Assembly: GCA_020200615.1 (NCBI GenBank)
Contig: JAIVIH010000006.1
Coordinates: 1 to 10,675, forward strand
DNA length: 10,675 nucleotides
Origin: Actinomycetota bacterium
Lineage (GTDB): Bacteria > Actinomycetota > Acidimicrobiia > Acidimicrobiales > AC-14
Direction of reading: 5' to 3'
A program made the position numbers and the translations under genes. Shown piece after piece: positions 1-10,675 of this stretch. How positions within the stretch are numbered: position 1 is the first letter of the stretch; each line of letters begins with the position of its first letter. The notes under the pieces were generated by a model that worked only from the letters and a program-made list of their open reading frames with translations, did no database searches and was not told the DNA's origin.

Positions 1-236
1 GTCAGATCGTGGCCACCAGTGAGGCGTACAACAGCAAGGCTTCGGCCATGACCGGCATCCGGTCGGTGCAGAAGCTGGCGGCCGACGCCGCCGTGGAGGA
101 CCAGACCAGCAAGGAGTGGGCCGCCGGCGAGGAAGCCCGCAAGGCAACCGCGGCGGCCAAGAAGGCCAAGAAGTCGGCGGCCAAGAAGTCGGCGGCCAAG
201 AAGGCCGCTGCGAAGAAGTCGTCTGCGTCTTCGTAG
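1..236 (+). CDS. YegP/DUF1508-family protein, C-terminal part (5' truncated), with Lys/Ala-rich tail
   Basis: The reading frame is open from the window edge (first full codon at base 3) to a TAG at 234-236, so the true start lies outside. The visible part begins QIVATSEAYNSKASAMTGI and continues through SVQKLAADAAVEDQT. This matches the usual DUF1508/YegP repeat pattern (I-A-T-S-E-x-Y-x-S-K-x-x-x-x-x-G-I-x-S-V, then an A-x-V-E-D-x-T ending), a small beta-alpha fold of unknown function. After the domain comes an acidic spacer (KEWAAGEEARK) and a low-complexity tail of about 25 residues made of KK, AAKK and SAAKK units. Such tails resemble those of actinobacterial histone-like proteins and suggest nucleic-acid or polyanion contact, but that is inference. 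The internal GTG at 9 lies within the domain and is not the start. Family assignment is fairly sure; function is unknown. Confidence 0.75.
   Translation, partial: QIVATSEAYNSKASAMTGIRSVQKLAADAAVEDQTSKEWAAGEEARKATAAAKKAKKSAAKKSAAKKAAAKKSSASS
168..203 (+). repeat. 15-bp tandem repeat encoding the KKSAA tail
   Basis: The unit aagaagtcggcggcc occurs twice in perfect tandem (168-182 and 183-197), followed by a partial third copy, aagaag (198-203). It encodes KKSAA-KKSAA-KK in the tail of the DUF1508 protein. Repeats like this expand and contract by slippage, so tail length probably varies between strains. Confidence 0.85.
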
Positions 237-343
237 TCTTGCGCCGCGCGCGAGGTAGCGAAGCCGGGATGGAGCGATGGGCGGTGGGAGCCCGGTCGGG
301 AAGGGAGCTGGACGCCGGCGGAAGCGTCGAGCTGCCTGCGTAG

Positions 344-362
344 GGGGGCTGTCCTGGCCCCC
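344..362 (+). terminator. Possible terminator hairpin after the DUF1508 gene
   Basis: GGGGGC (344-349) pairs with GCCCCC (357-362) around a 7-base loop. It lies about 110 bases past the stop of the DUF1508 gene and upstream of the next gene. No T-run follows, so it is not a classical intrinsic terminator, although GC-rich actinobacteria often lack the T-run. The rest of 237-414 shows no convincing gene or promoter. Confidence 0.3.
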
Positions 363-414
363 ACCGCACCTGTCGCCAAACACTCTTCGTCAGACTTTCC
401 CACCACCTTGAGCG

Positions 415-441
415 CGAATCGGGGCGAATCGTCGCGATTCG
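415..441. promoter_or_regulatory. Three 7-bp half-sites with 10-bp phasing, candidate operator
   Basis: CGAATCG occurs at 415-421 and 425-431, and its reverse complement CGATTCG at 435-441. The starts are exactly 10 bp apart, about one helical turn, so a protein could contact all three on the same DNA face. The second and third copies form an inverted repeat with a 3-bp spacer. The array sits 20 bp upstream of the GTG at 462, a suitable place for an operator or promoter element of the small membrane protein. The binding factor is unknown. Confidence 0.35.
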
Positions 442-461
442 GTGAGCGCTACCGTGGCCCC

Positions 462-683
462 GTGCTGGCCGAGACCTTGTTCCTGGGCGAGGATCTCCTC
501 CCCTTGCTGGTGCTGGCCCTGGGTGGGGCGCTGGCCGTCGGCAACGGCCTTGCCCTGGTGCGCCCGCCGCGTCAATCTCAGCCGGGAGAGTTGAGCCGGG
601 CCCCCGTAGGTCGCAGCCTGGTCATGCTCGGCGTTGGGTTGGTGGCCGCCGTGTGGGCCCTCGCCAGCCTCACCACCGGCTGA
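462..683 (+). CDS. Small two-helix integral membrane protein of unknown function
   Basis: The 73-residue product has two hydrophobic segments, about residues 12-32 (LLPLLVLALGGALAVGNGLA) and 51-69 (LVMLGVGLVAAVWALASL). A short basic, polar loop containing VRPPRQSQ joins them. It reads as a small inner-membrane protein; I know no enzymatic motif in it. I chose GTG 462 because it places only about ten residues before the first helix and leaves the phased half-site array (415-441) outside the gene. The frame also permits TTG 408, giving 91 residues with an arginine-rich N-terminus. Neither start has a strong Shine-Dalgarno; GGTGAG at 441-446 is 15 bases from 462, so leaderless translation is possible. 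It is convergent with the flavoprotein gene, 37 bp away. Existence as a gene is fairly likely; function is unknown. Confidence 0.6.
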   Translation: MLAETLFLGEDLLPLLVLALGGALAVGNGLALVRPPRQSQPGELSRAPVGRSLVMLGVGLVAAVWALASLTTG

Positions 684-702
684 CCTCTTTGACGGGCACG
701 GA

Positions 703-720
703 ACGGAGCACGCTCTCCGT
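703..720. terminator. Hairpin between convergent genes, possible two-way terminator
   Basis: ACGGAG (703-708) and CTCCGT (715-720) form a perfect 6-bp stem around a 6-base loop. They lie in the 37-bp gap between the stop codons of the membrane protein and the flavoprotein. The position suits a bidirectional terminator, but there is no T-run on either strand. Confidence 0.3.
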
Positions 721-1653
721 CTACGGCGGAGTGAGCCTGTATGCCTCAGACATCAAGCTGTGGACGATCCTGGCCGCCGCGCTCGACCCCGCGGCGACGG
801 CGTTGGCCACCGACGGCATTTGCGAGCACACGTCGCCCGCGGCGGACAGGCCAGGCGCGGTGGTCTGGTACATCGGATCCACTTCGATGGCATCGGCGGC
901 GACGAGGCCTGGGGCGGAGGCCGTCGCGCCAAGCTGCTCGGCGAGTGCGGAGCGCTGGGACAGGGTGACGGGCACGAGCATTCCGCCACAGGAACGTTCG
1001 CTGCCGTCAGCAAAGACGACGGCGGCCAGGGTGTTGCTCGGACCACACAACTCAGCGACGCGGCCCTCCTCGACCGTGATCCCCGCGGCGCGCACACGCT
1101 CGACGTCATCCGTGTCGAGTTCGGCGGGCCCGTCGGCGTAGAGCGTCACGTCGTCGCTCCAGTACCGCAGCAGGAGCGCCCGCTGCACCCCTCGGGCTCC
1201 CCTGTCGAGCACCCCCAGCGTCTGGTCCCGGACTTCCCATCCGTGGCAGAACGGGCAATGGAAGACCGAGCGGCCCCACCGCTCGGCGATTCCTGGCAAC
1301 GGGGGAAAGCGGTATTCCATGCCCGAGGCGAGCAGCACGCGCCGTGCCTCCGCGCAGGAGCCGTCGGCCAGCTCGAGCACGAACCCGGTTTCGTCCCGCC
1401 CGCCGCCCACGACTTCGCCGGACCGCAGCTCCACGGTCGGATAAGCGGCGACCTCGGCCCGCCCGGCAGCGTAGAACTCGGACGGGGGGCGACCGTCGTG
1501 GCCGAGCAGGCCGCCGATGCCGTGGGCGAAGCGGTTGCTCGGGGTACCGGCATCGATGAGGAGCGTCCTCTGCCGGGCCCGGCCGAGCACGAGCGCTGCG
1601 CTCAGCCCGGCGGCACCGGCGCCGACCACGATGCAGTCCCACGGCTCCTCCAC
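721..1653 (-). CDS. Thioredoxin-reductase-like FAD-dependent oxidoreductase with CPFC centre
   Basis: The 310-residue protein has the thioredoxin-reductase layout. A FAD-binding GAGAAG lies at residues 11-16 after CIVV. The redox-active pair is in CPFCHGWE (Cys133, Cys136), and the second FAD motif AAGDVC contains Gly273-Asp274. The CPxCHG-[WY]-E form is typical of the thioredoxin-reductase-like subgroup that includes dithiol oxidases and uncharacterised reductases, rather than housekeeping TrxB. The expected NAD(P)H glycine motif is degenerate: VLDRGARGVQ around residues 148-157 replaces GxGxxA. The electron donor may therefore be unusual, or the enzyme may act as an oxidase. The start is GTG 1653, with AGG eight bases upstream. 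It lies 25 bp downstream of the CooC-like gene and is probably co-transcribed with it. No thioredoxin gene is adjacent. The fold is sure; the substrate is unknown. Confidence 0.88.
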   Translation of the reverse strand: MEEPWDCIVVGAGAAGLSAALVLGRARQRTLLIDAGTPSNRFAHGIGGLLGHDGRPPSEFYAAGRAEVAAYPTVELRSGEVVGGGRDETGFVLELADGSCAEARRVLLASGMEYRFPPLPGIAERWGRSVFHCPFCHGWEVRDQTLGVLDRGARGVQRALLLRYWSDDVTLYADGPAELDTDDVERVRAAGITVEEGRVAELCGPSNTLAAVVFADGSERSCGGMLVPVTLSQRSALAEQLGATASAPGLVAADAIEVDPMYQTTAPGLSAAGDVCSQMPSVANAVAAGSSAAARIVHSLMSEAYRLTPP

Positions 1654-1678
1654 GTGGTCATCCTGACAGGGCCGCCGC

Positions 1679-2497
1679 TCAGTTCCCCTTCAGCTCGATG
1701 AGGCGGCGCTCAATGCGGTCGCGCTCCAGGAGGAGAGCCGTGCGCTCGGCGTCGGGCGACTCGACGAAGTCGACGATGGCCGCCACCGCACGCCGTACGT
1801 CGCTGGCCTCGTCGGCCGTGAGGGCCGTGCCCCGGCGGTCGGCCGCAGGGACCTGGGCGTCGAAGGGCACGATACCGGCTAGGGGGACACCGAACTCCCC
1901 GGCCACCTTCTCGAAGAACTCGGCGTCGGCCGGAAGCTTGGCCTTGTTGCCGATGCCCGCCATCCGGGCGATGCCCAGCTCCTCGGCGAGGGTGATGGTG
2001 CGGGCGGCGGTGAGGATGGACTTCTGAGTGGGCTCCATGACCATGAGCAGGATGTCGGCGTACGCAAGCGTTCCGCCCGAACGGCTGAGATGCTCGAGGC
2101 CGGCTTCCATGTCCACCAGGGTGACGTCGGCCAGCTCCTCGATGGTCGAGCCCAGGATGCTCCGGACGGCGGCGTGACTGGTGCATGTGCACCCCGCGCC
2201 GGCCTGGTCCACCCGCATGGCGTGAAGAAGGGTCACCCCGGAGGGCGTGGGAAGCCCGAAGGTCTCGATCAGTCGCTCGGGCGTCCACTGGGCCATACCG
2301 CCGACGGCCAGACTGCGGGGGACGACGGGCGCCTGATTGGCGGTGTCCTCGTCGAGACCCAGGCTGATGGCCAGGTTCGGGTTGGAGTCGGTGTCGATGG
2401 CCAGCACCCGGCGACCGCGCGCCCGGTACTCCTCGCAGATGAGGGCCGACAGGGTGGTCTTGCCGACCCCGCCCTTGCCCACGATCCCGATCTTCAT
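1679..2497 (-). CDS. cooC: CooC/AcsF-type MinD-family ATPase (nickel insertion, CO dehydrogenase maturation type)
   Basis: The 272-residue P-loop protein opens MKIGIVGKGGVGKTT, a deviant Walker A with the signature lysine of the MinD/ParA/CooC superfamily. DTDSNPN at 35-41 follows the family pattern. Cys103-Thr-Cys105 is the CxC pair which, in CooC, binds a metal at the dimer interface. VDMEAGLEHLSR (128-139) is the characteristic CooC segment. CooC hydrolyses ATP to help load nickel into the C-cluster of anaerobic CO dehydrogenase; AcsF does the same for acetyl-CoA synthase. No CooS, Acs or CooT homologue is visible here, so the client is unknown and the symbol marks the family only. The ATG at 2497 has an excellent Shine-Dalgarno (AAGGGAGG, 6 bases upstream); the 38-codon upstream extension of the frame lacks family sequence. 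It lies 85 bp after the Crp-family gene and 25 bp before the flavoprotein. It could be another MinD-like maturation ATPase, but CxC plus MEAGLEHL argues for CooC. Confidence 0.82.
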   Translation of the reverse strand: MKIGIVGKGGVGKTTLSALICEEYRARGRRVLAIDTDSNPNLAISLGLDEDTANQAPVVPRSLAVGGMAQWTPERLIETFGLPTPSGVTLLHAMRVDQAGAGCTCTSHAAVRSILGSTIEELADVTLVDMEAGLEHLSRSGGTLAYADILLMVMEPTQKSILTAARTITLAEELGIARMAGIGNKAKLPADAEFFEKVAGEFGVPLAGIVPFDAQVPAADRRGTALTADEASDVRRAVAAIVDFVESPDAERTALLLERDRIERRLIELKGN

Positions 2498-2503
2498 CGG
2501 GAA

Positions 2504-2511
2504 CCTCCCTT
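2504..2511 (-). promoter_or_regulatory. Strong ribosome binding site fixing the CooC-like start
   Basis: On the minus strand the sequence reads AAGGGAGG, followed by six bases and then the ATG at 2497. It is among the best Shine-Dalgarno matches in the window and decides against the longer upstream frame. Confidence 0.7.
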
Positions 2512-2582
2512 GGTGGTGAACGCACCCATTGTGGCGCACCTCCGGAAGTTCGGCTGCCCCGCGCCGGGCGCCGCCCCCCATC

Positions 2583-3278
2583 TCAGCGTGCCCGGCGGGC
2601 GAGGGCCTCATGGTCGACGAGGGTCACCCGTCCCCTCGCCAGCGCCAAGGTCCCTGCCTTCTCCTCCCGTCGCAGCACCCGATTCACTGTCGCCCGGGTG
2701 GTCCCGGCCAGCCCGGCGATGTCCTCCTGGGTCAGGGGGATGGTGTCGCCGTAGGTGCGGCCCAGGTCGATCAGCCGCCGCAGTAGTCGAGTCTCAGCGG
2801 GAAGGTAGAGCGCCTCCATCAGCCGGGCGTCGAGCAGCCGCACCCGCTCGGCCAGCATCTGCACGAGCACCTCGGTCACCGACGGGTCGTCGCGGCGCAG
2901 AGCGGAGAAGACGGACTCGTCGAGGGACAGCGTCTCCGTGGGCTCGAGGGCGACGGCCGTGGCGCCCCGCCGGATGTCGGGGGCGAGCAGCGCCAGCTCG
3001 CCGAGAGCATCACCGGGGCCGAGGAGGTCCACGGTGACGACATCCCCCAAGGGCGTGCTGATGCGCACGGCCACGCGACCGCGGTCGACGAGGTGGATGC
3101 TGGCCGCGGGGTCACCCTCGTGGAACAGGACCTCGCCCTTCGAGAATCGGCGGCGCCGGGCGCTGGCCAGAACCCGCCGGACGTCCGTGTCCGAGAGCCC
3201 CTTCAGCAGCTGCCATTCCACTCCGGCAGACCCTATTGCCCGCTCCGGTGCCGCACCCGCTTGTGTGTCGGCCGTCAC
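2583..3278 (-). CDS. Crp/Fnr-family transcriptional regulator, Crp-like
   Basis: The 231-residue product has an N-terminal cyclic-nucleotide-binding beta-roll (about 25-125), a long dimerisation helix (about 130-158) and a C-terminal winged helix. The recognition region TQEDIAGLAGTTRATVNRVL (183-202) is the classic Crp HTH with R-x-T-V-N-R. In the pocket, GEL (93-95) and Arg104 correspond to the Gly-Glu-Leu and the phosphate-binding arginine of E. coli CRP; the Ser/Thr after that arginine is Gly105. There are no cysteines, so an FNR-type iron-sulfur sensor is excluded, and cyclic nucleotide or another small effector is more likely. The start is uncertain: GTG 3278 gives this length, while GTG 3221 (AGGG nine bases upstream) would still begin just before the domain. 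It is divergent from the cupin gene, and an inverted repeat at 3287-3302 lies just upstream, suggesting autoregulation. It probably leads the unit with the CooC-like ATPase and flavoprotein. Confidence 0.88.
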   Translation of the reverse strand: MTADTQAGAAPERAIGSAGVEWQLLKGLSDTDVRRVLASARRRRFSKGEVLFHEGDPAASIHLVDRGRVAVRISTPLGDVVTVDLLGPGDALGELALLAPDIRRGATAVALEPTETLSLDESVFSALRRDDPSVTEVLVQMLAERVRLLDARLMEALYLPAETRLLRRLIDLGRTYGDTIPLTQEDIAGLAGTTRATVNRVLRREEKAGTLALARGRVTLVDHEALARRAR

Positions 3279-3286
3279 GCTCCGGA

Positions 3287-3302
3287 TGTGCCTGCGGGCA
3301 CG
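3287..3302. promoter_or_regulatory. Candidate Crp-like operator in the divergent promoter region
   Basis: TGTGCCTGCGGGCACG contains the perfect inverted repeat GTGCC-TGCG-GGCAC. It keeps the GTG-N8-CAC spacing of Crp-type sites (consensus TGTGA-N6-TCACA). It sits in the 80-bp region between the Crp-family gene and the divergent cupin, about nine bases from the chosen GTG of the regulator. Binding here would be expected to repress the regulator and could affect the cupin. GC-rich DNA yields such short palindromes by chance, so confidence is modest. Confidence 0.4.
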
Positions 3303-3358
3303 GCGCGAACCGCCCACGGCCGTCAGGGTGGTCACGTAGGCGCAAAGGAGCGACGGCG

Positions 3359-3910
3359 ATGACCCTTTCCACACTTGTCCGGCCCGAAGAGGCCCCGGCT
3401 TCCGAGCCTCTCCTCGGGCAACCGGCGGATGGGGCGCCATCGGGTCCTTCGCGCGCCGTCCCTCTCGCACTCTTGGGCGCGGGGCTGGTGTGTGTCCTGC
3501 TGGCCATCTTCGTACTGGTCCAGTTCGGCGGACGCCGCGCCTCGGAGCCCGCCCCCATGACGGTCGCCGCCAACACCTCGACTCCACCCGGGCCCATCTC
3601 CGTGTCCGGCCCCGGTGACATCAGTGTCGCCCGCCAGGTGTACGAGCCCGGTCAGGACAGCGGCTGGCACACCCACCCCGGAATCCATGCCGTAGCTGTG
3701 CTCTCGGGCACGCTCACTGTTTACGACAGCGAGTGCCGGGCCCAGACCTTCGAGGCGGGCCGGCCCTACATCGGCGGTCAGGAGCTGCACCTGGCTCGTA
3801 ACGAGACCGCGGTGCCGGTGGAGATGTCCGTGACCTATGTCAGCCCGTCGGCACCCACCACCCCCTCCAGGCACCTGCCCGCTCCCACTGGTTGCGAGGT
3901 GGCGCGGTGA
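3359..3910 (+). CDS. Membrane-anchored extracytoplasmic cupin-domain protein
   Basis: The 183-residue protein has a polar N-terminus, one transmembrane helix (about 33-56, AVPLALLGAGLVCVLLAIFV) followed by GGRR, a proline/threonine-rich linker (65-85) and a single cupin domain (about 86-163). The metal ligands are recognisable. GWHTHPG gives His104 and His106, and HLARN gives His144 with the usual H-x3-N spacing. The glutamate expected after HxH is replaced by His110, so an all-histidine site is possible. Two cysteines after the helix (126, 179) could form a disulfide. The orientation is inferred: the short, positively flanked anchor suggests the cupin lies outside the membrane, although the RR after the helix is ambiguous. 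The ATG is preceded by AAAGGAG with 8-base spacing. It is divergent from the Crp-family gene and 59 bp upstream of a small gene. The substrate is unknown. Confidence 0.8.
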   Translation: MTLSTLVRPEEAPASEPLLGQPADGAPSGPSRAVPLALLGAGLVCVLLAIFVLVQFGGRRASEPAPMTVAANTSTPPGPISVSGPGDISVARQVYEPGQDSGWHTHPGIHAVAVLSGTLTVYDSECRAQTFEAGRPYIGGQELHLARNETAVPVEMSVTYVSPSAPTTPSRHLPAPTGCEVAR

Positions 3911-3969
3911 GCCCGACCCGACAGGTGAACTCAGGTGTCGCTCCCCACGAAAAGCCGGAAGGTGATGCC

Positions 3970-4251
3970 ATGTCCGCGAGCATCGAAGAAATTACCGCTG
4001 AGGTTCGGCGTTTGACGGCGTTGTCCTTCGATTTGGCGCGTGCCTACGCCGACCCCTGTGGAGGCAGGATCAAGCGGCTCGCCCCCCTGGCGTCACACGT
4101 CGACGCCGAGCTGAGCGGGCTCATGGACAGGATGGAGGCGCTGCCCTTCTCCTGCCCTGCGGAACTTTCGACGCGGTGCGAGGTCGCCCGCCAGGCCCTG
4201 AGCCATCTGGTGGACGCTCCGCGATTCCTGGCCGCCACGGGCCACCGCTAA
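3970..4251 (+). CDS. Small hypothetical helical protein
   Basis: The 93-residue product is not recognised. It appears almost entirely alpha-helical, with amphipathic stretches at about 4-27, 41-57 and 64-82, and has three cysteines (30, 62, 70). There is no signal peptide or membrane segment, so it is probably cytosolic. I chose ATG 3970 because GGAAGG lies about seven bases upstream. The frame also allows GTG 3907, which overlaps the cupin stop and would add 21 residues. It follows the cupin by 59 bp on the same strand and is probably co-transcribed. Its TAA (4249-4251) overlaps the TAG of the convergent cyclase/ATPase gene. Confidence 0.6.
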   Translation: MSASIEEITAEVRRLTALSFDLARAYADPCGGRIKRLAPLASHVDAELSGLMDRMEALPFSCPAELSTRCEVARQALSHLVDAPRFLAATGHR

Positions 4252-7200
4252 AGGGTGGAGACGCCGGTCCCGAGAGCCTCGGCCTCGCGGGCCAGACGGG
4301 GCATTCCCAGCTGAGTCGCCGTCGTCCGCGCCGCGCTGAGCAGACCGGCGGCCTGCTGCTGGTCGCCAGGCCCCAGCCGGGCCAGGAGGAGGCGGGCGTA
4401 CCAGTACCGGCTGCGGGCAACGAGGGGAAGCGCACCGATGCGCTCCTCGAGCTCGAGCCCGCTGCGGAAGAGGGCCTCGGCTTCTTCGAAGCGGCCGGTC
4501 GTGGCCAGGACCATCCCTAGATAGCGGTCCACCGCGCCAGGGCAGTAAGAGCCGTTGGCCACCACCACCAACTGCCCGGAATAGGGCCGGAACAGCTCGG
4601 CCAGCGTCGCCGCTCGCCCGGCGTCCTCGAGGGCGGCGGCCGCTTCGCACAGGATGCCCATGGCGCCCGGCCACACGAGGTCTCGGGGGACGGCGGCAAA
4701 ACCGTCGGTGGCGAGCTCGTCCAGCAGGCGACGAGCCTCGTCCGTCTCTCCGTGCTCGACGTGGGCCAGAGCAAGGGCGGCGTGAAAACCGGCCAGGCCC
4801 GGCGTGCGCTCGATGACCTGGCTCAGGAACGGCTTCAAGCTGCCCAGCCGACCGCGCTCGAAGGAGAGCTGAAACATCTGGCCGGCGAAGGCGTTCTGGA
4901 AGTTCTCGTCGTCGGCGCCCATCCGTGCCAGCTCGGCGGTGGCGGCCTCGAAGTCGGCGAACTGGCCCTCGAGGAGGGCCCGGCACCCCTTCCAGAGCGC
5001 GACCAGGGCCAGGAAGTACCGGCTCTTGAGCCGTCGTCCCAGGCGTTCGACCTCCGCCACCGCGTCAAGAAAGCCGGCGTAGTCCCCGAGGATGAGGCGG
5101 GGGACGGTGACCAGGCGGTGGGCGTCGACCGATGCCAGCCAGCCGGAGGGCGTGATGACCGTCGACGTGCGGAGCTGTTCGGCCAGCGCCAGTTGGTCGG
5201 CGGCCCGCTCCGACCCCCACAGGAACTGGTAGCGCCCGTACCGGGCCAGCCCCAACGCCTCAGCGTCATCGGTCTCGGCCGCCAGAGCCAGCGCTTCCTG
5301 GCTCCTGCTGTCCGCTTCCTCGGTCTTACCGGCGTAGGCCAGCTGGAGCGCGAGCACACTCAGAACCCGGGCCCGGTGGACGGGCTCCCCATCGCCGAGC
5401 GCATCCAGGGCCTCCTCGCACAGGTCGATGCCGACTTGGTCGAGCTGGCCGGCGACGCCCCTGGCGCCGTACCAGCATGCGGCCTGGGCCAGACGTTCGG
5501 GCGAGCCCAGCTCCCGAGCCAGGCGTGCGGCGGCGAGGCTCACCTCCCGCACCGCGGCGGCATCCAGGGCCCGCAGGTGAACCTCGGCCAGAGCGAGCAT
5601 CAGGTCGCACCGGCGGTTGGGGTCGGCGCGCTCGTCGGCGTCGATGGCGGCCAGGCCTCGCTGCAGCAGCGTGGCCGCTTCCTCGTGGGCCACCTGGTCG
5701 AGAGCGGCGCGGGCCGCCCGCAGGGCGTAATCGGCGGCTTTGGCCGAGTGCCCAGCGATGGCCGCCTGTCCGAAGTGGTGGGCCAGGGATGGCACGTGGG
5801 GACCGTCGGGACCGTGCAGCTGCTCCAGGGCCTCGCCCACCCGGCGATGGAGGACGGCCCGCCGCGCCGAAGTCAGTTCCCGGTAGAGCGTCTGGCGGAC
5901 GATGGCGTGGGCGAATGCGTAGCGGCAGGGGGCGTCGGGCAGCTCGACGATGAGGCGGGCACGCGCCGCCTCGTCGATCCCGTCGAGGATGTCTGCGGGG
6001 GTCCCGGCCTCGCCCACCTGCTCCAGGAGGTCGGGCCCGAAGTCGGTGCCGATCACGGATGCCACCGTGAGGACCCGATTGGCGGCGGTGGACAGCCGGC
6101 TCAGGCGGCCTCGGACCACCTCCCGGACTCCTTCGGGGATGCCGACGAGGGCCAGGTCGGATTCCGAGGTCCAGATGCCCTCGCGCTGGTAGACCGCACC
6201 CGTCTCCGCCAGGTGCCGCAGGAGCTCGCGGACGAAGAAGGGATTGCCCTCCGTCTCGGCGTGCACGACCGTGGCCAGCACCCGGCTCGGCTCGTCCAGA
6301 GCGTGACCCGCGAGTCGCTCGCAGTAGGCGAAGACGCCGGCCTGGTCGAGGCCGCTGAGGTGGAGCCGGTCGACGGAAGGCTGCCGCCGGAGGTCGCCCA
6401 GGGCGGCAGTCAGCTCCTGGGTGTTGTCCACCTCGGTGTCCCGATAGGTGCCCACGATCAGCAGTCCGGCCGAGCGCAGGGAGCGGACCAGGTGACAGAG
6501 AAGCAGCAAGGTGGGCCGGGCCGCCCAGTGCAGGTCGTCGAGCACCAACATGAGTGGGGTGTCGCGGGAGGCATCGGCCAGGAGGCCGTCCACCGCTTCG
6601 AACAGCCGGAGCCGGTCACCCTCGGGCTCGACCAGCTTGGGCGACGGGGTGCCCGGCAGCCGTCGGGCCAGGTCCGGTACCAGGCGGAGGAGCTCGCCCG
6701 CGTGGACGTCGACGTGGGCGGCCAGGACGCCGGCCTCGCAGTGCTCGACCAGGTGGCGTAGAGCCTCGGTGAAGGGCTGGTAGGGAACCCCCAGATCGGC
6801 GTCGCACCGGCCGTACAGGACGTTCGTGCCCGCCCCGTGGGCAGTGGCGGCGACGGCCGCCACCAAGCGGGTCTTGCCGATCCCGGGCTCGCCCGCCACC
6901 AGCACGGCGCGCCGGACGCCCTCGGCGGCACGCTCGAGGTTGCTCTCGAGCACGATCTGGGCCTCGTCCCGACCCACGATGGGTTGCCGGTCGCTCAACT
7001 CCAGCGTGGGTGGCAGCGGCATCTCGGCGATGGCGACGTCCCACCCGACCTCCCAGGCCCCCACCGGCTCCCCCAAGCCCTTGAGCTCGAGGCGGCCCAC
7101 GGACTCGAAGCGGTGCCCGGAACGGGAGCCCACGAGGGCCCGCATCAGGTCGGAAACCAGCACCTGCCCGGGCTGGGCTGCGGCGCAGAGCCGGGCCGCC

Positions 7201-7547
7201 TCAACGACGGGGGTGCCGAAATAGTCGCCGTCCTCGGTGGTTGCCTCGCCCACACTGGCGCCGACGCGGATCTGCAGCGGGGCTCCGGTCTCGCGCCGGT
7301 CGAGGCGGGCGACCGCCTGCTGGGCGGCCACGGCGCAGGAGACGGCGTCCACCGCGCTGGTGAACGCCACCATCAAGCCGTCGCCCAGGCTCTTGACTTC
7401 CTCGCCGTGCCACTTGGTGACGGCCTTGCGGATCGCGGCGAAGAGCGTACGCCGAACCCCGTCGGCCCGATCCCCCAACCGGGCCAGCAGCTCAGTGGAG
7501 CCGACTACATCGGTAAAGAGGATCGTCACCGTCGATGACGAGCCCAT
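4248..7547 (-). CDS. Class III nucleotidyl cyclase - AAA ATPase - helical-repeat (TPR-like) signalling protein
   Basis: The 1099-residue multidomain protein begins with a class III cyclase domain (about 1-170). Metal-binding Asp13 (FTDVVGST) and Asp56 (SLGDG) are present. Lys52 and Asp108 correspond to the adenine-selecting Lys/Asp pair, and Arg119 (EAARL) to the transition-state arginine. The matching asparagine is replaced by Val115, so activity may be reduced. An AAA/STAND-like ATPase follows, with Walker A GEPGIGKT at 219-226, Walker B LMLVLDDLHW at 332-341 and a family GNPFFVRELLRHL motif near 434-446. Residues about 560-1099 are helical repeats of TPR type. No LuxR HTH is present at the C-terminus, unlike some mycobacterial cyclase-ATPase regulators. 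Such proteins are thought to couple ligand or partner sensing to cyclic nucleotide output; the signal here is unknown. ATG 7547 has AGGGGT five bases upstream. The gene lies 59 bp downstream of the catalase-dioxygenase frame, possibly in the same transcript. Confidence 0.9.
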   Translation of the reverse strand: MGSSSTVTILFTDVVGSTELLARLGDRADGVRRTLFAAIRKAVTKWHGEEVKSLGDGLMVAFTSAVDAVSCAVAAQQAVARLDRRETGAPLQIRVGASVGEATTEDGDYFGTPVVEAARLCAAAQPGQVLVSDLMRALVGSRSGHRFESVGRLELKGLGEPVGAWEVGWDVAIAEMPLPPTLELSDRQPIVGRDEAQIVLESNLERAAEGVRRAVLVAGEPGIGKTRLVAAVAATAHGAGTNVLYGRCDADLGVPYQPFTEALRHLVEHCEAGVLAAHVDVHAGELLRLVPDLARRLPGTPSPKLVEPEGDRLRLFEAVDGLLADASRDTPLMLVLDDLHWAARPTLLLLCHLVRSLRSAGLLIVGTYRDTEVDNTQELTAALGDLRRQPSVDRLHLSGLDQAGVFAYCERLAGHALDEPSRVLATVVHAETEGNPFFVRELLRHLAETGAVYQREGIWTSESDLALVGIPEGVREVVRGRLSRLSTAANRVLTVASVIGTDFGPDLLEQVGEAGTPADILDGIDEAARARLIVELPDAPCRYAFAHAIVRQTLYRELTSARRAVLHRRVGEALEQLHGPDGPHVPSLAHHFGQAAIAGHSAKAADYALRAARAALDQVAHEEAATLLQRGLAAIDADERADPNRRCDLMLALAEVHLRALDAAAVREVSLAAARLARELGSPERLAQAACWYGARGVAGQLDQVGIDLCEEALDALGDGEPVHRARVLSVLALQLAYAGKTEEADSRSQEALALAAETDDAEALGLARYGRYQFLWGSERAADQLALAEQLRTSTVITPSGWLASVDAHRLVTVPRLILGDYAGFLDAVAEVERLGRRLKSRYFLALVALWKGCRALLEGQFADFEAATAELARMGADDENFQNAFAGQMFQLSFERGRLGSLKPFLSQVIERTPGLAGFHAALALAHVEHGETDEARRLLDELATDGFAAVPRDLVWPGAMGILCEAAAALEDAGRAATLAELFRPYSGQLVVVANGSYCPGAVDRYLGMVLATTGRFEEAEALFRSGLELEERIGALPLVARSRYWYARLLLARLGPGDQQQAAGLLSAARTTATQLGMPRLAREAEALGTGVSTL

Positions 7548-7566
7548 GGTGACCCCTAGCCTCTAG

Positions 7567-7586
7567 CTGGGCACGTGGTGGCCCAG
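7567..7586 (-). other. Inverted repeat between the dioxygenase and cyclase genes
   Basis: CTGGGC (7567-7572) and GCCCAG (7581-7586) can form a 6-bp stem with an 8-base loop in the 59-bp gap. It lies after the stop of the upstream gene and about 20 bases before the cyclase start. It has no T-run, so it could be a weak terminator, a processing site or chance. Confidence 0.25.
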
Positions 7587-7606
7587 GCCTCCGACCGGTG
7601 AGGACG

Positions 7607-10342
7607 CTACCCCGACCAGAGCTCGAATGGATTCTTGATATCCCGGAGGGCAGGGGACAGTGAGGGGTAGTGGCGGAGGAGGACGTCCTTCAGCCCGTTC
7701 TCGCGTATCCACTTCATCCCTATCTGGGTGTACGTCTCTTTGCCCCAGGAGTCGGTGAAGAAGCGGTCGCTCTGCAAGCGGCGCGAGGCCATGAGGATGA
7801 ACACCCGGAATGCGGTGTCGCTGAAGGCGAAGCCTTCGGGACGGCGCTCGACGAGCATGCCGACCTGCAGGTCGACGCGCTCGATGTCGTCCCCGTAGAC
7901 CTCCCGGAGCTCGGCCTGCCATTGCGGGTCGTCGGTCAGCTCCTCGAAGGAGCGGGCGGCCTTCAGATGGAACCGCCTGCGGAACTCGTTGTAGCGAGGC
8001 ACTCCCCGCTCCCGGTCTCGGAGGATGTCGATCGCGGCCAGGTCGAGGAGCTGCATCTCCCCGGAAGGTCCCGGCTTCTCCAGCTGCTGGAGGGTGACGG
8101 GGAAGTTGTGCAGCGTGACCGCGCCGCACCGGGCCCGGCCCAGGGAGAACAGGACGTCGTCCGGCGGCAGCTTGTCCTTGAGGAGCCCGGGAGCGTCGGC
8201 CGCCAGCAGCTCGACCAGCCGGAAATCTCCGAGGTGACGGCGGTCTCCTGCGGCAAAGAAGGAGAACTCGTCCGGCAGCAAGGAGTGCATGCGGTACACG
8301 GCGACGAATTCCTCGGTCAGGGAGTACGGGGCGGTGTGGTGCTCGGTCCGGGAGCCGGGGATGCCGAACAGGAAGTGGCCGCGACCGAGGCGCCCCCAGC
8401 GCCTGGTGGCGAAGCTCAAGAGGCCCCACCAGTTGATGTTCAGGGCCCAGCGGGCGTTGTGCTCGAGGGTGAAGAGGGTGTGCAGAGCAAGGGTGCCGAG
8501 CCACAGGTTCCCGGCGGGTCCGGACAGCTTGAGGTTCTCGCCCAGCTCCTCCGGGACCAGCCCGTTCCTCACCTTGAGCTTGCCGTCGGCTCGGCGCGGG
8601 TCGGTCCGGATCTTCTCCATCCAGACTGGGTCGTTGCCGTAGATCTGCGACCCGTCCCACCAGTGGCTCTCATAGGAGATATACGTGGGGCTCGGGCCCG
8701 TCTTCGTTTCCGGCTCCGGGTCAGGCGCGGTTCGGGGGATGGTCATGGGCCGCCGATCCTGGGGCCACTTGTCGTCGGGCACGTCCAGCTGCCAAGGGTC
8801 CCCCTCCGCGTTGTCGCCGTGGCTCACCCAGTCGTGGATCTCGAACTGGATCCAAGCGGCGGTCAGCACGTTCACCCCTGCCGGGATGAATTCCTTGCGC
8901 GACAGCAGCTTCTGGCTGATGACGCGGGGGTTGGGGTCGAGGAGCTTCTGCTTCTCCTCCTGCATCGTGTACTCGACCGGGACGTTGCGTCCGAACCGGG
9001 TCTGGACCGCGCCCATGATGGGCTGCTCGAGGTCGTTGAGCCTGCCCTCGACGGTTCGGAACCGCTCGTATTCACCCGGGGGGTAGGTCGGAACGTTCTG
9101 GACGTCCCCCCGGTGGTAGAGGTTCTTCTGGCGAAGACGAATCCTGATGCCGGCGATGGCCCCGATCCCGACCAGCGGTGGTACCCGGTCCCAGCCCTTC
9201 CAGCGGTCGATCACCGAGGCGAACCCGACGAGTATCCGGGAGAACGGAGACCGAGCCATGGCGAATCCTTTCCGTGGTGGGACTTCTATCCCGGCGCTCC
9301 GGTGGGCAGCGCCGGCCTCGTAGACGGGACGGCGCGCCCGGTTGAGGTTGCCGAGGGGACGGAAGCCGTCAGCCGTGTTCCATGGGTTGAAGGCCAGCGC
9401 CTCCACCTGGCGCTCGACCCTGGCGGCCTCGTCGGATGCGAGGTCCTGCTGGGGGATGGTCAACTCGGCCACGACGACCGGTGCTGAGACCCGTTCGCGC
9501 CACACCTGGGCGCCGTCCTCGATCGGAGTCCGCTTCTCGTCGACGAACCGCTGGGCGTGAAGGGTGAAGGTGACGGGGCCGGCCCCGACCCGGGTGGTGA
9601 GCTCGTCGCGGAGGCCTTCGTGCCGCCTGGGGGTCAGCACCCGGCGGGTCTTCTCGCTCGGCGCGAGCTTGAAGCGCACGGCCTCATCGCCGATGGCGAA
9701 GGCGGAGCGGCTCCAGAACGTCTCGGCGGAGATGCTGGCCACGGGATGGGCGACGGCCCGGCTGAGGGCGACCGCCATCCGCAACGCCTCGCGCGGGCCG
9801 ATCATCGGAATCAGACGGAGAATCATGCCGACGGCGGTCTTGGACTCGGCCTTGGCTCGGGCCTGGGCCATGAACTGGATGACGTTCCGGGCATGGGAGG
9901 CGGGGGCGTTGGTCATCAGGAAGTCCTGGCCGCCGCCGGGGCCGTGGACTCGTATGGCCACCCCCCGAAGGTCCTTCTTCGAGTCCCGTTGGCGGGTACC
10001 GCTGGCGTTGGAGAACCGGACCGTGGCCCGGTGGGTCGTGCCCGGTTGGAACAGCCCCACCTGCAGATCGGTGGGTACCGCCGGCGACACGCGAAAGGTG
10101 GCGTTGTCCACGGCGCCGAGGCTCTTGGCGTGGAAAGCCCGGTCCGGGCCGGTGGAACGGCTGCGGGCCTGGTTGCGGTCCTGCACCTCGCGGATCTCGA
10201 CCTGGAAGCGGGCGAACAACTCCGCCTCCGCGTCCGGGCTTCCGCCTAGGTAGACCTCACGCCACCGCGTTGCCGACCTGGTGCTCCGACCATCCGCCGT
10301 CGTCACGGACGCAAGTCTCGCGTGACGGCGTCCGCTCCGCAC
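7607..10342 (-). CDS. Fusion of a catalase-related hemoprotein and a cyclooxygenase/alpha-dioxygenase-type heme dioxygenase (putative two-step oxylipin enzyme)
   Basis: The 911-residue frame contains two heme domains. Residues about 28-348 are catalase-related. Distal His71 is in FHAKSLGA, Asn145 in MTNAP, and the proximal ligand is Tyr341 in RRPVY (R-x3-Y). This group includes allene oxide synthase and hydroperoxide lyase, which act on fatty acid hydroperoxides. Residues about 362-911 resemble plant alpha-dioxygenase and cyclooxygenase. Distal His503 and Gln499 are in WIQFEIHDW, EHN is at 627-629, and VYRMHSLLPDEF holds the catalytic Tyr683 and heme-ligand His686. Nostoc punctiforme has these as neighbouring genes, a linoleate 10S-dioxygenase and a 10S-hydroperoxide lyase; a similar coupled reaction is inferred here. 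Start GTG 10342 has GAGG eight bases upstream, overlapping the stop of the preceding gene; GTG 10306 is an alternative. Oddities are a possible two-gene origin with an internal start at 9259, and about 45-50 family residues missing after EHN. No signal peptide is apparent. Confidence 0.85.
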   Translation of the reverse strand: MRSGRRHARLASVTTADGRSTRSATRWREVYLGGSPDAEAELFARFQVEIREVQDRNQARSRSTGPDRAFHAKSLGAVDNATFRVSPAVPTDLQVGLFQPGTTHRATVRFSNASGTRQRDSKKDLRGVAIRVHGPGGGQDFLMTNAPASHARNVIQFMAQARAKAESKTAVGMILRLIPMIGPREALRMAVALSRAVAHPVASISAETFWSRSAFAIGDEAVRFKLAPSEKTRRVLTPRRHEGLRDELTTRVGAGPVTFTLHAQRFVDEKRTPIEDGAQVWRERVSAPVVVAELTIPQQDLASDEAARVERQVEALAFNPWNTADGFRPLGNLNRARRPVYEAGAAHRSAGIEVPPRKGFAMARSPFSRILVGFASVIDRWKGWDRVPPLVGIGAIAGIRIRLRQKNLYHRGDVQNVPTYPPGEYERFRTVEGRLNDLEQPIMGAVQTRFGRNVPVEYTMQEEKQKLLDPNPRVISQKLLSRKEFIPAGVNVLTAAWIQFEIHDWVSHGDNAEGDPWQLDVPDDKWPQDRRPMTIPRTAPDPEPETKTGPSPTYISYESHWWDGSQIYGNDPVWMEKIRTDPRRADGKLKVRNGLVPEELGENLKLSGPAGNLWLGTLALHTLFTLEHNARWALNINWWGLLSFATRRWGRLGRGHFLFGIPGSRTEHHTAPYSLTEEFVAVYRMHSLLPDEFSFFAAGDRRHLGDFRLVELLAADAPGLLKDKLPPDDVLFSLGRARCGAVTLHNFPVTLQQLEKPGPSGEMQLLDLAAIDILRDRERGVPRYNEFRRRFHLKAARSFEELTDDPQWQAELREVYGDDIERVDLQVGMLVERRPEGFAFSDTAFRVFILMASRRLQSDRFFTDSWGKETYTQIGMKWIRENGLKDVLLRHYPSLSPALRDIKNPFELWSG
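9257..9271 (-). promoter_or_regulatory. Internal ribosome binding site and ATG at the domain junction
   Basis: On the minus strand AAAGGA (9271-9266) precedes an in-frame ATG (9259-9257) by six bases. This ATG begins MARSPFSRILVGF, just where alpha-dioxygenase-type proteins normally start. The dioxygenase half (550 residues) could thus be made separately, in addition to or instead of the fusion. The site may be a relic of two adjacent genes. Confidence 0.55.
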
Positions 10343-10352
10343 GGCCGGCGCC

Positions 10353-10675
10353 TCAGTCGGGGTGAACCAGCTCCCGGACGCCCTCGAGCAGTAGCTCCCG
10401 GACCGTTTCCCACGTGCGCTCGGCGGCTGCCACGAGAAGGCCGTTCGAAGTCTGCGGCGGGCGGTACTCGGTACCGTCGAAGCGCCGGCACACGCCGCCC
10501 GTCTCCTTGACCAGGAGGACACCCGGCGCGTGGTCCCAGGGGAGGGTCCGCCAGAAGACGAGGAACTCCTGCTCCCCCATGGCCAGGAGGGGGTAGTCGA
10601 CCCCGGCGCACATCCGGCCCGGGAGGACCGCGCCCAGCCGATGGCTGTTGGCCGCGATGATCGCGGCCATGGGGG
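10353..10675 (-). CDS. Inositol-monophosphatase-family protein, C-terminal part (5' end outside window)
   Basis: The frame is open to the right edge, leaving about the last 107 residues visible. LPWDHAPGVLLVKETGG carries the second family signature (W-D-x-A-x-G followed by a V-x-E-[AT]-G-G pattern), in which the aspartate (codon 10533-10535) is a metal ligand of the magnesium-dependent phosphatase site. The preceding CAGVDYPLLAMGEQEF and the following FDGTEYRP fit the C-terminal lobe of this superfamily (IMPase, fructose-1,6-bisphosphatase GlpX-unrelated, CysQ, histidinol phosphatase HisN types). The exact substrate cannot be told from this part. The stop TGA (10355-10353) overlaps the likely Shine-Dalgarno of the catalase-dioxygenase gene, 10 bp before its GTG, so the two are probably translated from one message. 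The metabolic connection between them is not obvious. Confidence 0.82.
   Translation of the reverse strand, partial: PMAAIIAANSHRLGAVLPGRMCAGVDYPLLAMGEQEFLVFWRTLPWDHAPGVLLVKETGGVCRRFDGTEYRPPQTSNGLLVAAAERTWETVRELLLEGVRELVHPD

Follow-up and report, generated by a model that had tools for sequence, protein, structure and literature searches.

What does a catalase-related protein do when it is joined, within a single polypeptide, to an alpha-dioxygenase-type domain? The question is raised by a gene on contig JAIVIH010000006.1 (assembly GCA_020200615.1) of an Actinomycetota bacterium, positions 1 to 10,675 of which were analysed and are called the window here, with coordinates being window positions. 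The product of this gene, the query in the following, carries a catalase-related half at its N-terminus and an alpha-dioxygenase-type half at its C-terminus. The reading that we favour, with a probability of about 60%, is that such proteins form a widespread family of two-heme fusions, the intact members of which would oxygenate fatty acids at C2, and that the query is a separate assembly of the same two parts with an impaired oxygenase.

The reading frame is open throughout and comprises 911 amino acids when counted from the GTG at 10342; a public protein with 100% identity to the query (P0001) has 899, which is consistent with a start at the GTG at 10306. The initial annotation had described catalase and dioxygenase signatures in this one frame, and every one of the motifs is there: F70-H71-A72-K73 and R337-x3-Y341 on the catalase side, Q499-x3-H503-D-W and V682-Y683-R684-M685-H686 on the dioxygenase side. 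As the Pfam assignments (PF03098, animal haem peroxidase, E 4.6e-79; PF00199, catalase, E 3.8e-09), the structure matches to alpha-dioxygenases and the match to the catalase fold all agree, the motifs are not due to chance.

The best match of the C-terminal half among PDB sequences is the plant alpha-dioxygenase 4kvj (E 4.1e-98), with a lactoperoxidase entry (3.8e-14), peroxinectin A (2.6e-12) and cyclooxygenases (from 3.4e-11) as the next kinds of protein, and in the tree it groups with the plant and the free-standing cyanobacterial enzymes. His503, Tyr683, His686 and Arg855 are equivalent to His157, Tyr379, His382 and Arg559 of the rice enzyme (residue numbers of the rice chain are three above the rice numbering, a shift established by hand from His157, Tyr379 and His382), and Arg855 is invariant in the protein alignment A1. 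An enzyme from a plasmid of Calothrix PCC 6303 (L157; L and G numbers denote our loci and genomes), a strain that we take to be Calothrix parietina, has histidines at positions 131 and 361. For CalDOX, an alpha-dioxygenase that has been assayed, PMC8720084 reports histidines at these same positions, and with CalDOX and LepDOX of that paper, as with the rice enzyme (4kvj, 4hhr), the C-terminal half of the query shares sequence, heme ligands, the catalytic tyrosine and the Arg559 counterpart. These alpha-dioxygenases are free-standing, whereas the query carries a catalase-fold half and is without the segment that holds the counterpart of rice His311.

The N-terminal half was modelled with AlphaFold2 from 45 aligned sequences (mean predicted local distance difference test, pLDDT, 90.1; predicted template modelling score 0.88), and in a Foldseek search of the PDB the model falls among catalases (best E 4e-16). 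Its second-ranked match, at 24% identity, is 3e4y, a structure of the 33 kDa catalase-related protein of M. avium paratuberculosis (also 3e4w), which shares the minimal catalase fold with the query half, but which in its structure is a protein on its own. The heme residues of this half are the distal Phe70-His71, the distal Asn145 and the proximal Arg337-x3-Tyr341, so that the catalase fold, the proximal tyrosine and the distal histidine and asparagine by which relatedness was judged are all found in the query.

True catalases have a Val-His pair at the distal side of the heme, and enzymes of fatty acid hydroperoxides have Thr-His. The fused proteins have neither: across 121 aligned proteins, a number that includes the query and its copy, the distal histidine is preceded by Phe in 83, Leu in 18, Ser in 12 and Gln in 3, with a gap in 5 and Val or Thr in none, and the histidine column itself holds His in 111, Tyr in 3, Gln in 2 and a gap in 5. 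When the alignment columns of 34 fused loci were read, the preceding residue was Phe in 30, Leu in two, Gln in two and never Thr, and in loci with the reverse domain order it is Ala in 13 of 13. The query half lacks the marks of a true H2O2 catalase, as it has Phe in place of Val and matches PF00199 only at profile positions 35-141 of 383, and also the hallmark of the Thr-His type enzymes, the Thr being replaced by Phe.

The fusion is common. A whole-protein search, in which the 7993 candidates with most shared words were scored, gave 7171 proteins at E <= 0.001, and in the 120 best matches listed, one of them the query's own copy, PF03098 was present in 120 and PF00199 together with PF03098 in 104, although fused proteins are at an advantage in a list ranked by matches over the full length. 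The search for other fused architectures that had been proposed at the outset thus had a clear result, and within these 120 matches the fusion spans cyanobacteria, actinobacteria, alphaproteobacteria and others (named taxa include Leptolyngbya, Anabaena, Scytonema, Streptomyces, Actinomadura, Rhizobium, Mesorhizobium, Ruegeria and Verrucomicrobia), the proteins being annotated, where named at all, mostly as 'catalase' or 'peroxidase family protein'. A unique fusion, or one without precedent in actinobacteria, where the initial annotation was aware of none described, is refuted by these proteins and by the genome loci, as Streptomyces, Actinomadura, Geodermatophilus and others carry the same fusion. 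A literature search found no description of a catalase/alpha-dioxygenase fusion, which is weak evidence of absence due to poor coverage of subscription papers; the bacterial fusions seem to be little studied.

At the level of genomes, a scan with the query protein alone as probe found no relative on the contigs, and the loci were collected with an alignment of 30 sequences, the best 80 of 589 matching stretches being used. A single frame with the catalase half first is present in 57 of the 80 loci and would be in a 58th, L043 from a metagenome-assembled genome of Pseudonocardiales, where the fused frame stops within the dioxygenase half, possibly by an assembly frameshift. Of the other loci, two combine the domains in one frame with the dioxygenase first, 11 carry them as two genes, and in nine no catalase-like partner was found beside the dioxygenase at E 1e-8. 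It had been argued that the fusion would be refuted if close relatives were always two genes with a stop in between; this is not the picture across the family, but the nearest relatives of the query's dioxygenase half are indeed free-standing.

The reverse order is a matter of its own. In loci of Mycobacterium, Mycolicibacterium and Nocardia, the dioxygenase gene comes first and is followed by the catalase-like gene; seven of ten Mycobacterium/Nocardia pairs offer an ATG that overlaps the stop codon as ATGA, and in the other three the closest start on the list is found 16-21 bases beyond the stop. Dioxygenase-first single frames exist as well (L072, L077, L180). The catalase halves of ten reverse-order loci are only 24-29% identical to that of the query, the six of them included in the tree form a clade of their own, and a sequence search of the PDB with the dioxygenase-linked catalase-like gene of the mycobacterial locus L071 gave nothing at E 0.001. 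The two domains were probably joined more than once. That they work together is best supported by the occurrence of both orders, and the repeated pairing speaks for a functional coupling. A further pairing is seen in genome G003 (L146 and L092), where a free-standing alpha-dioxygenase-type gene and a divergent catalase-related gene of the Thr-His type occur.

The query shares the architecture, the domain order and the grouping of the N-terminal half with the other bacterial PF00199+PF03098 fusions (such as those of Streptomyces, Rhizobium phaseoli plasmids, Calothrix and Leptolyngbya), but differs from them in belonging to another dioxygenase clade and in a core segment that they possess. In IQ-TREE phylogenies of 46 sequences each, the N-terminal half of the query lies within the fused clade (support 97/96; subclade 95/89) and its dioxygenase half within the free-standing and mycobacterial enzymes (99/95). 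When the dioxygenase half was forced into the fused clade, or joined to the nearer fused subclade, the approximately unbiased (AU) test rejected both placements with p 0.0005. Descent of both halves from one ancestral fusion is thus not what was found, the N-terminal half being inside the fused clade and the C-terminal half outside, and membership of the query in the common fused lineage with both halves was rejected on the tree conflict and the AU test, with long branches as a caution. The closest relatives of its dioxygenase half are 50-59% identical over part of that half. In the class of a Solirubrobacterales relative, 30 of 399 genomes have a strong dioxygenase match (E <1e-60), and none is listed with a single match joining dioxygenase and catalase half, where scoring was limited to two candidates in each genome and long frames in G403, G433 and G481 left aside; among 396 genomes of the phylum, such a joined match occurs in two, G843 and G641.

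The seam between the two halves fits to this history. It contains an ATG (Met362) with a Shine-Dalgarno-like GGAAAGGA ahead of it, at 22 residues before a conserved tryptophan, and six free-standing relatives (L055, L056, L063, L066, L067, L073) start 19-22 residues before the same tryptophan, a Shine-Dalgarno-like site accompanying the start in five (L080 was not scorable in this comparison). The start codon and the sequence resembling a ribosome-binding site lend some independent support to a separate fusion. Tree conflict, seam features and free-standing relatives taken together, a separate fusion event is the simplest reading, and the query looks like an independent assembly in which a catalase half from the fused lineage and a dioxygenase from the free-standing/mycobacterial lineage were brought into one frame, as judged from sequence comparison.

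It also looks like an assembly that has lost something. About 48 residues are absent in frame from the core of the dioxygenase half: the stretch from Glu-His-Asn-Ala630 to Trp632 has 21 residues in the query and 68-71 in all 119 other aligned proteins, and the distance from EHN to YRMH is 50 in the query as compared to 97-102 in all 93 measurable cases among 117 distinct dioxygenase frames. In the relatives, the absent segment holds the counterpart of rice His311, which is therefore gone from the query, and a 2008 paper in the Journal of Biological Chemistry names His311 and Arg559 in its title as key residues for oxygenation. Without this part of the core, oxygenase activity of the query copy is doubtful: unless the gap is an artefact, the query is probably a poor oxygenase or none, and it may retain the activity of the catalase half alone. 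The full-length model, made from the query copy alone, has a mean pLDDT of 82.4, and the values fall below 50 at residues 621-652 of 899, just past the gap. The core gap, the seam ATG with its GGAAAGGA, the differing histories of the halves and the reverse-order pairs were all absent from the initial annotation.

The gap may be taken further, as a sign that this copy is a decaying gene or a product of faulty assembly, with a non-functional oxygenase and a fused frame of little function. This explanation survives best of all alternatives and is a serious possibility that falls short of even odds. The gap is unique to the query among the copies compared, the His311 counterpart is lost with it, the model is poor just behind it, and both halves sit on long branches. 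Against it stand the 911 open codons, the in-frame nature of the gap and the retention of the remaining catalytic residues on either side of it, and the third-position G+C content is high and similar in the two halves (0.879 and 0.900). We favour the separately assembled fusion with an impaired oxygenase over a remnant, and yet several points weigh against this reading. The gap is known from a single sequence, with the nearest relative at 59% over part of the domain, and could be an assembly error. The full-length model comes without a confidence value for the arrangement of the domains, and other segments also fall below a pLDDT of 50 (1-11, the linker at 339-348, 591-598 and 848-858). The end branches of the query are long (0.74 and 0.90), so that a long-branch effect may account for part of the disagreement between the trees, and a first look with FastTree had preceded the AU test. 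The seam start is not decisive either, since mycobacterial relatives have candidate starts farther upstream, and the close free-standing relatives L059 and L065 have there only candidate starts without a ribosome-like site. As to the family, the literature search turned up no assay of any fused member, and in three of the 34 fused loci (L031, L050 and L070, of the Actinoplanes type) the distal histidine is replaced by Gln (GFQAK) while the frame is still open, which means that the catalase half may be non-catalytic in some members.

The seam permits one more explanation, namely that the two halves are partly separate products, with the dioxygenase being made also, or even mainly, from the internal ATG at 9259. 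The position of this ATG, its GGAAAGGA and the starts of the six free-standing relatives would all agree with such a use, but there is no stop between the halves, and ribosomes that start upstream must therefore make the fusion; without it, nothing would terminate the catalase half. Partly separate products are a rather unlikely explanation.

For intact members of the family, the following sequence of events can be proposed. The dioxygenase domain would most likely use its tyrosyl radical to oxygenate fatty acids with O2 at C2, with both domains predicted to bind heme. Its affinity to alpha-dioxygenases lets a 2-hydroperoxide be expected rather than a 10-hydroperoxide, and according to PMC9305512, the 2-hydroperoxide of alpha-dioxygenases either decarboxylates to an aldehyde shorter by one carbon or becomes a 2-hydroxy acid. 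The catalase-fold domain would then steer the fate of this hydroperoxide, by reducing it to the 2-hydroxy acid or by cleaving it to the shortened aldehyde, and perhaps it would also clear excess peroxide. Such a sequential action, first the dioxygenase and then the catalase half, had been suggested from the beginning and is plausible.

The catalase half might instead be a mere guard or activator that adjusts the H2O2 level near the tyrosyl-radical oxygenase, without any lipid hydroperoxide being handed over. Its distal pair is neither Val-His nor Thr-His, which leaves room for such a role, but the 33 kDa M. avium paratuberculosis protein, a structural neighbour at 24% identity (3e4y), reportedly prefers organic hydroperoxides over H2O2, which speaks for a lipid substrate. 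H2O2 oxidises the heme of alpha-dioxygenase and thereby initiates the tyrosyl radical, as stated in PMC9305512, and an H2O2-adjusting neighbour would make sense in that respect. In the coral fusions of a catalase-related allene oxide synthase or hydroperoxide lyase with a lipoxygenase, however, the catalase-related domain processes the product of its partner domain (PMC5617202); these proteins have the same order, with the catalase-related domain at the N-terminus and the oxygenase at the C-terminus, but their partner is a lipoxygenase and their chemistry that of 8R-hydroperoxides. A role as guard alone is rather unlikely, and a hand-over of the 2-hydroperoxide from one domain to the other is the preferred reading of the fusion.

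The initial annotation had in mind another model, the pair of 10S-dioxygenase and 10S-hydroperoxide lyase from Nostoc punctiforme, of which the query would be the one-polypeptide counterpart, with a cyclooxygenase-like 10S-dioxygenase feeding a catalase-related lyase. The partners come from the same two superfamilies and lie side by side in cyanobacteria, where a catalase-related gene adjoins the dioxygenase in eight of 17 loci of the 10S type. The Nostoc genes are separate, as stated in PMC13049297 (2026), which also prints the terminal motif of the 10S-dioxygenase. As a regular expression, the whole motif matched none of the cyanobacterial 10S-type enzymes, and direct reading revealed DAFSQ near the C-terminal end in all seven sequences read. 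The tyrosine region is YRWH in 16 of the 17 loci, all of one order, and the query has VYRMH and GFAFSDTAFRVFILMASRRL as counterparts of the two motifs. In the tree, the 10S-type enzymes are a separate, far branch. Their catalase-related neighbours have Thr before the distal histidine in seven of eight cases and Glu in one cyanobacterium (L116), the eight being not independent as they share one cyanobacterial order. With a different terminal motif, a remote tree position, the 4kvj match and a Phe-His pair in place of Thr-His, the analogy is weakened and a one-polypeptide version of the Nostoc pathway is very unlikely. A cyclooxygenase-like or 10S-type C-terminal half is ruled out by the first three of these, and from the initial description of a catalase-related domain fused to a COX/alpha-dioxygenase-like domain the fusion and the alpha-dioxygenase part have stood, the cyclooxygenase-like part has not.

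Genes near the relatives may tell something about the use of the product. In 30 of the 80 loci, there is a protein of about 460 amino acids, in 22 of these 30 directly after the fused gene, overlapping or at a distance of <=26 bases (with mechanically chosen starts); the members tested had no Pfam, NCBIfam or PDB sequence match. A group of thiamine diphosphate (ThDP) enzymes of mixed subtypes is found in 23 of the 80 loci. Both occur together in L003, L006, L009, L012, L013, L021 and others from Actinomycetota and Pseudomonadota, with the ThDP enzyme upstream or downstream. The nearest solved structures of the ThDP enzyme of Mesorhizobium are BbmA and CsmA, and according to PMC12395478 (2025), CsmA and 'BpmA', presumably the same as BbmA, are homologues of the acyloin-condensation enzyme CybE. 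This resemblance makes an aldehyde-to-acyloin route a possible use of the product, in which the neighbouring ThDP enzyme would take up the aldehyde.

Some other loci have surroundings of interest. On pNGR234a of Sinorhizobium fredii NGR234 (L156), a free-standing relative of the N-terminal half, presumably the gene y4iL, lies near genes of a di-heme cytochrome c peroxidase and a patatin-like phospholipase, which is a lipid/peroxide context. On plasmid pRetR611c of Rhizobium phaseoli (L081, 7010-13526), the fused gene is followed on one strand by a cytochrome c gene and two hypothetical genes, and the gene at the equivalent place in L007 matches a RoxA-like cytochrome c. In the window itself, the neighbours of the query gene are an inositol-monophosphatase-family gene upstream and a cyclase/AAA gene downstream, which say little about its role; the features and the remaining genes of the window are collected in the table.

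Table. Features of the query gene and other genes of the window, with their positions and the evidence for them.
Feature	Position	Strand	Evidence
Whole open frame with catalase-related and alpha-dioxygenase-type domains	7607..10342	-	Open reading frame, Pfam, protein search
Catalase-related domain, residues 29-348	9299..10258	-	PF00199, AlphaFold2 model and PDB fold search, conservation
Codons of Phe70-His71, distal heme pair	10130..10135	-	Alignment column counts
Alpha-dioxygenase-type domain, residues 362-910	7613..9259	-	PF03098, alignment to 4kvj/4hhr
Missing part of the dioxygenase core (about 48 residues, in frame, between Ala630 and Trp632)	8447..8455 (good to a residue or two)	-	Alignment, motif distances
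ATG at the seam (Met362), 22 residues ahead of the conserved Trp	9257..9259	-	Start-codon comparison
Shine-Dalgarno-like GGAAAGGA ahead of the seam ATG	9266..9273	-	Sequence reading
Inositol-monophosphatase-family gene, end part, just upstream of the fused gene	10353..10670	-	PF00459
Adenylate/guanylate cyclase-domain and AAA ATPase protein, just downstream of the fused gene	4248..7547	-	PF00211, PF13191
CRP/FNR-family regulator	2583..3587	-	
MinD/ParA-type ATPase	1679..2611	-	
Thioredoxin-reductase-like flavoprotein	721..1653	-	

Catalase relatives are known as partners of oxygenases, and the alpha-dioxygenase-type partner described here is a widespread variant of such partnerships. A broader picture can be drawn only tentatively and is more doubtful than the reading of the query itself: independent, repeated joinings in both orders could have made an alpha-oxidation module, in which the Phe-His and Ala-His proteins, as a third type of the catalase fold, handle 2-hydroperoxy acids, and from which in several lineages a ThDP carboligase makes acyloin-type lipids. 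The question that the family raises is what a catalase fold with a Phe-His pair does to a 2-hydroperoxy acid; with an answer, a second step of alpha-oxidation in bacteria would be defined. The copy of this Actinomycetota bacterium may show how such a fusion was rebuilt from separate pieces, and perhaps how it is now decaying.

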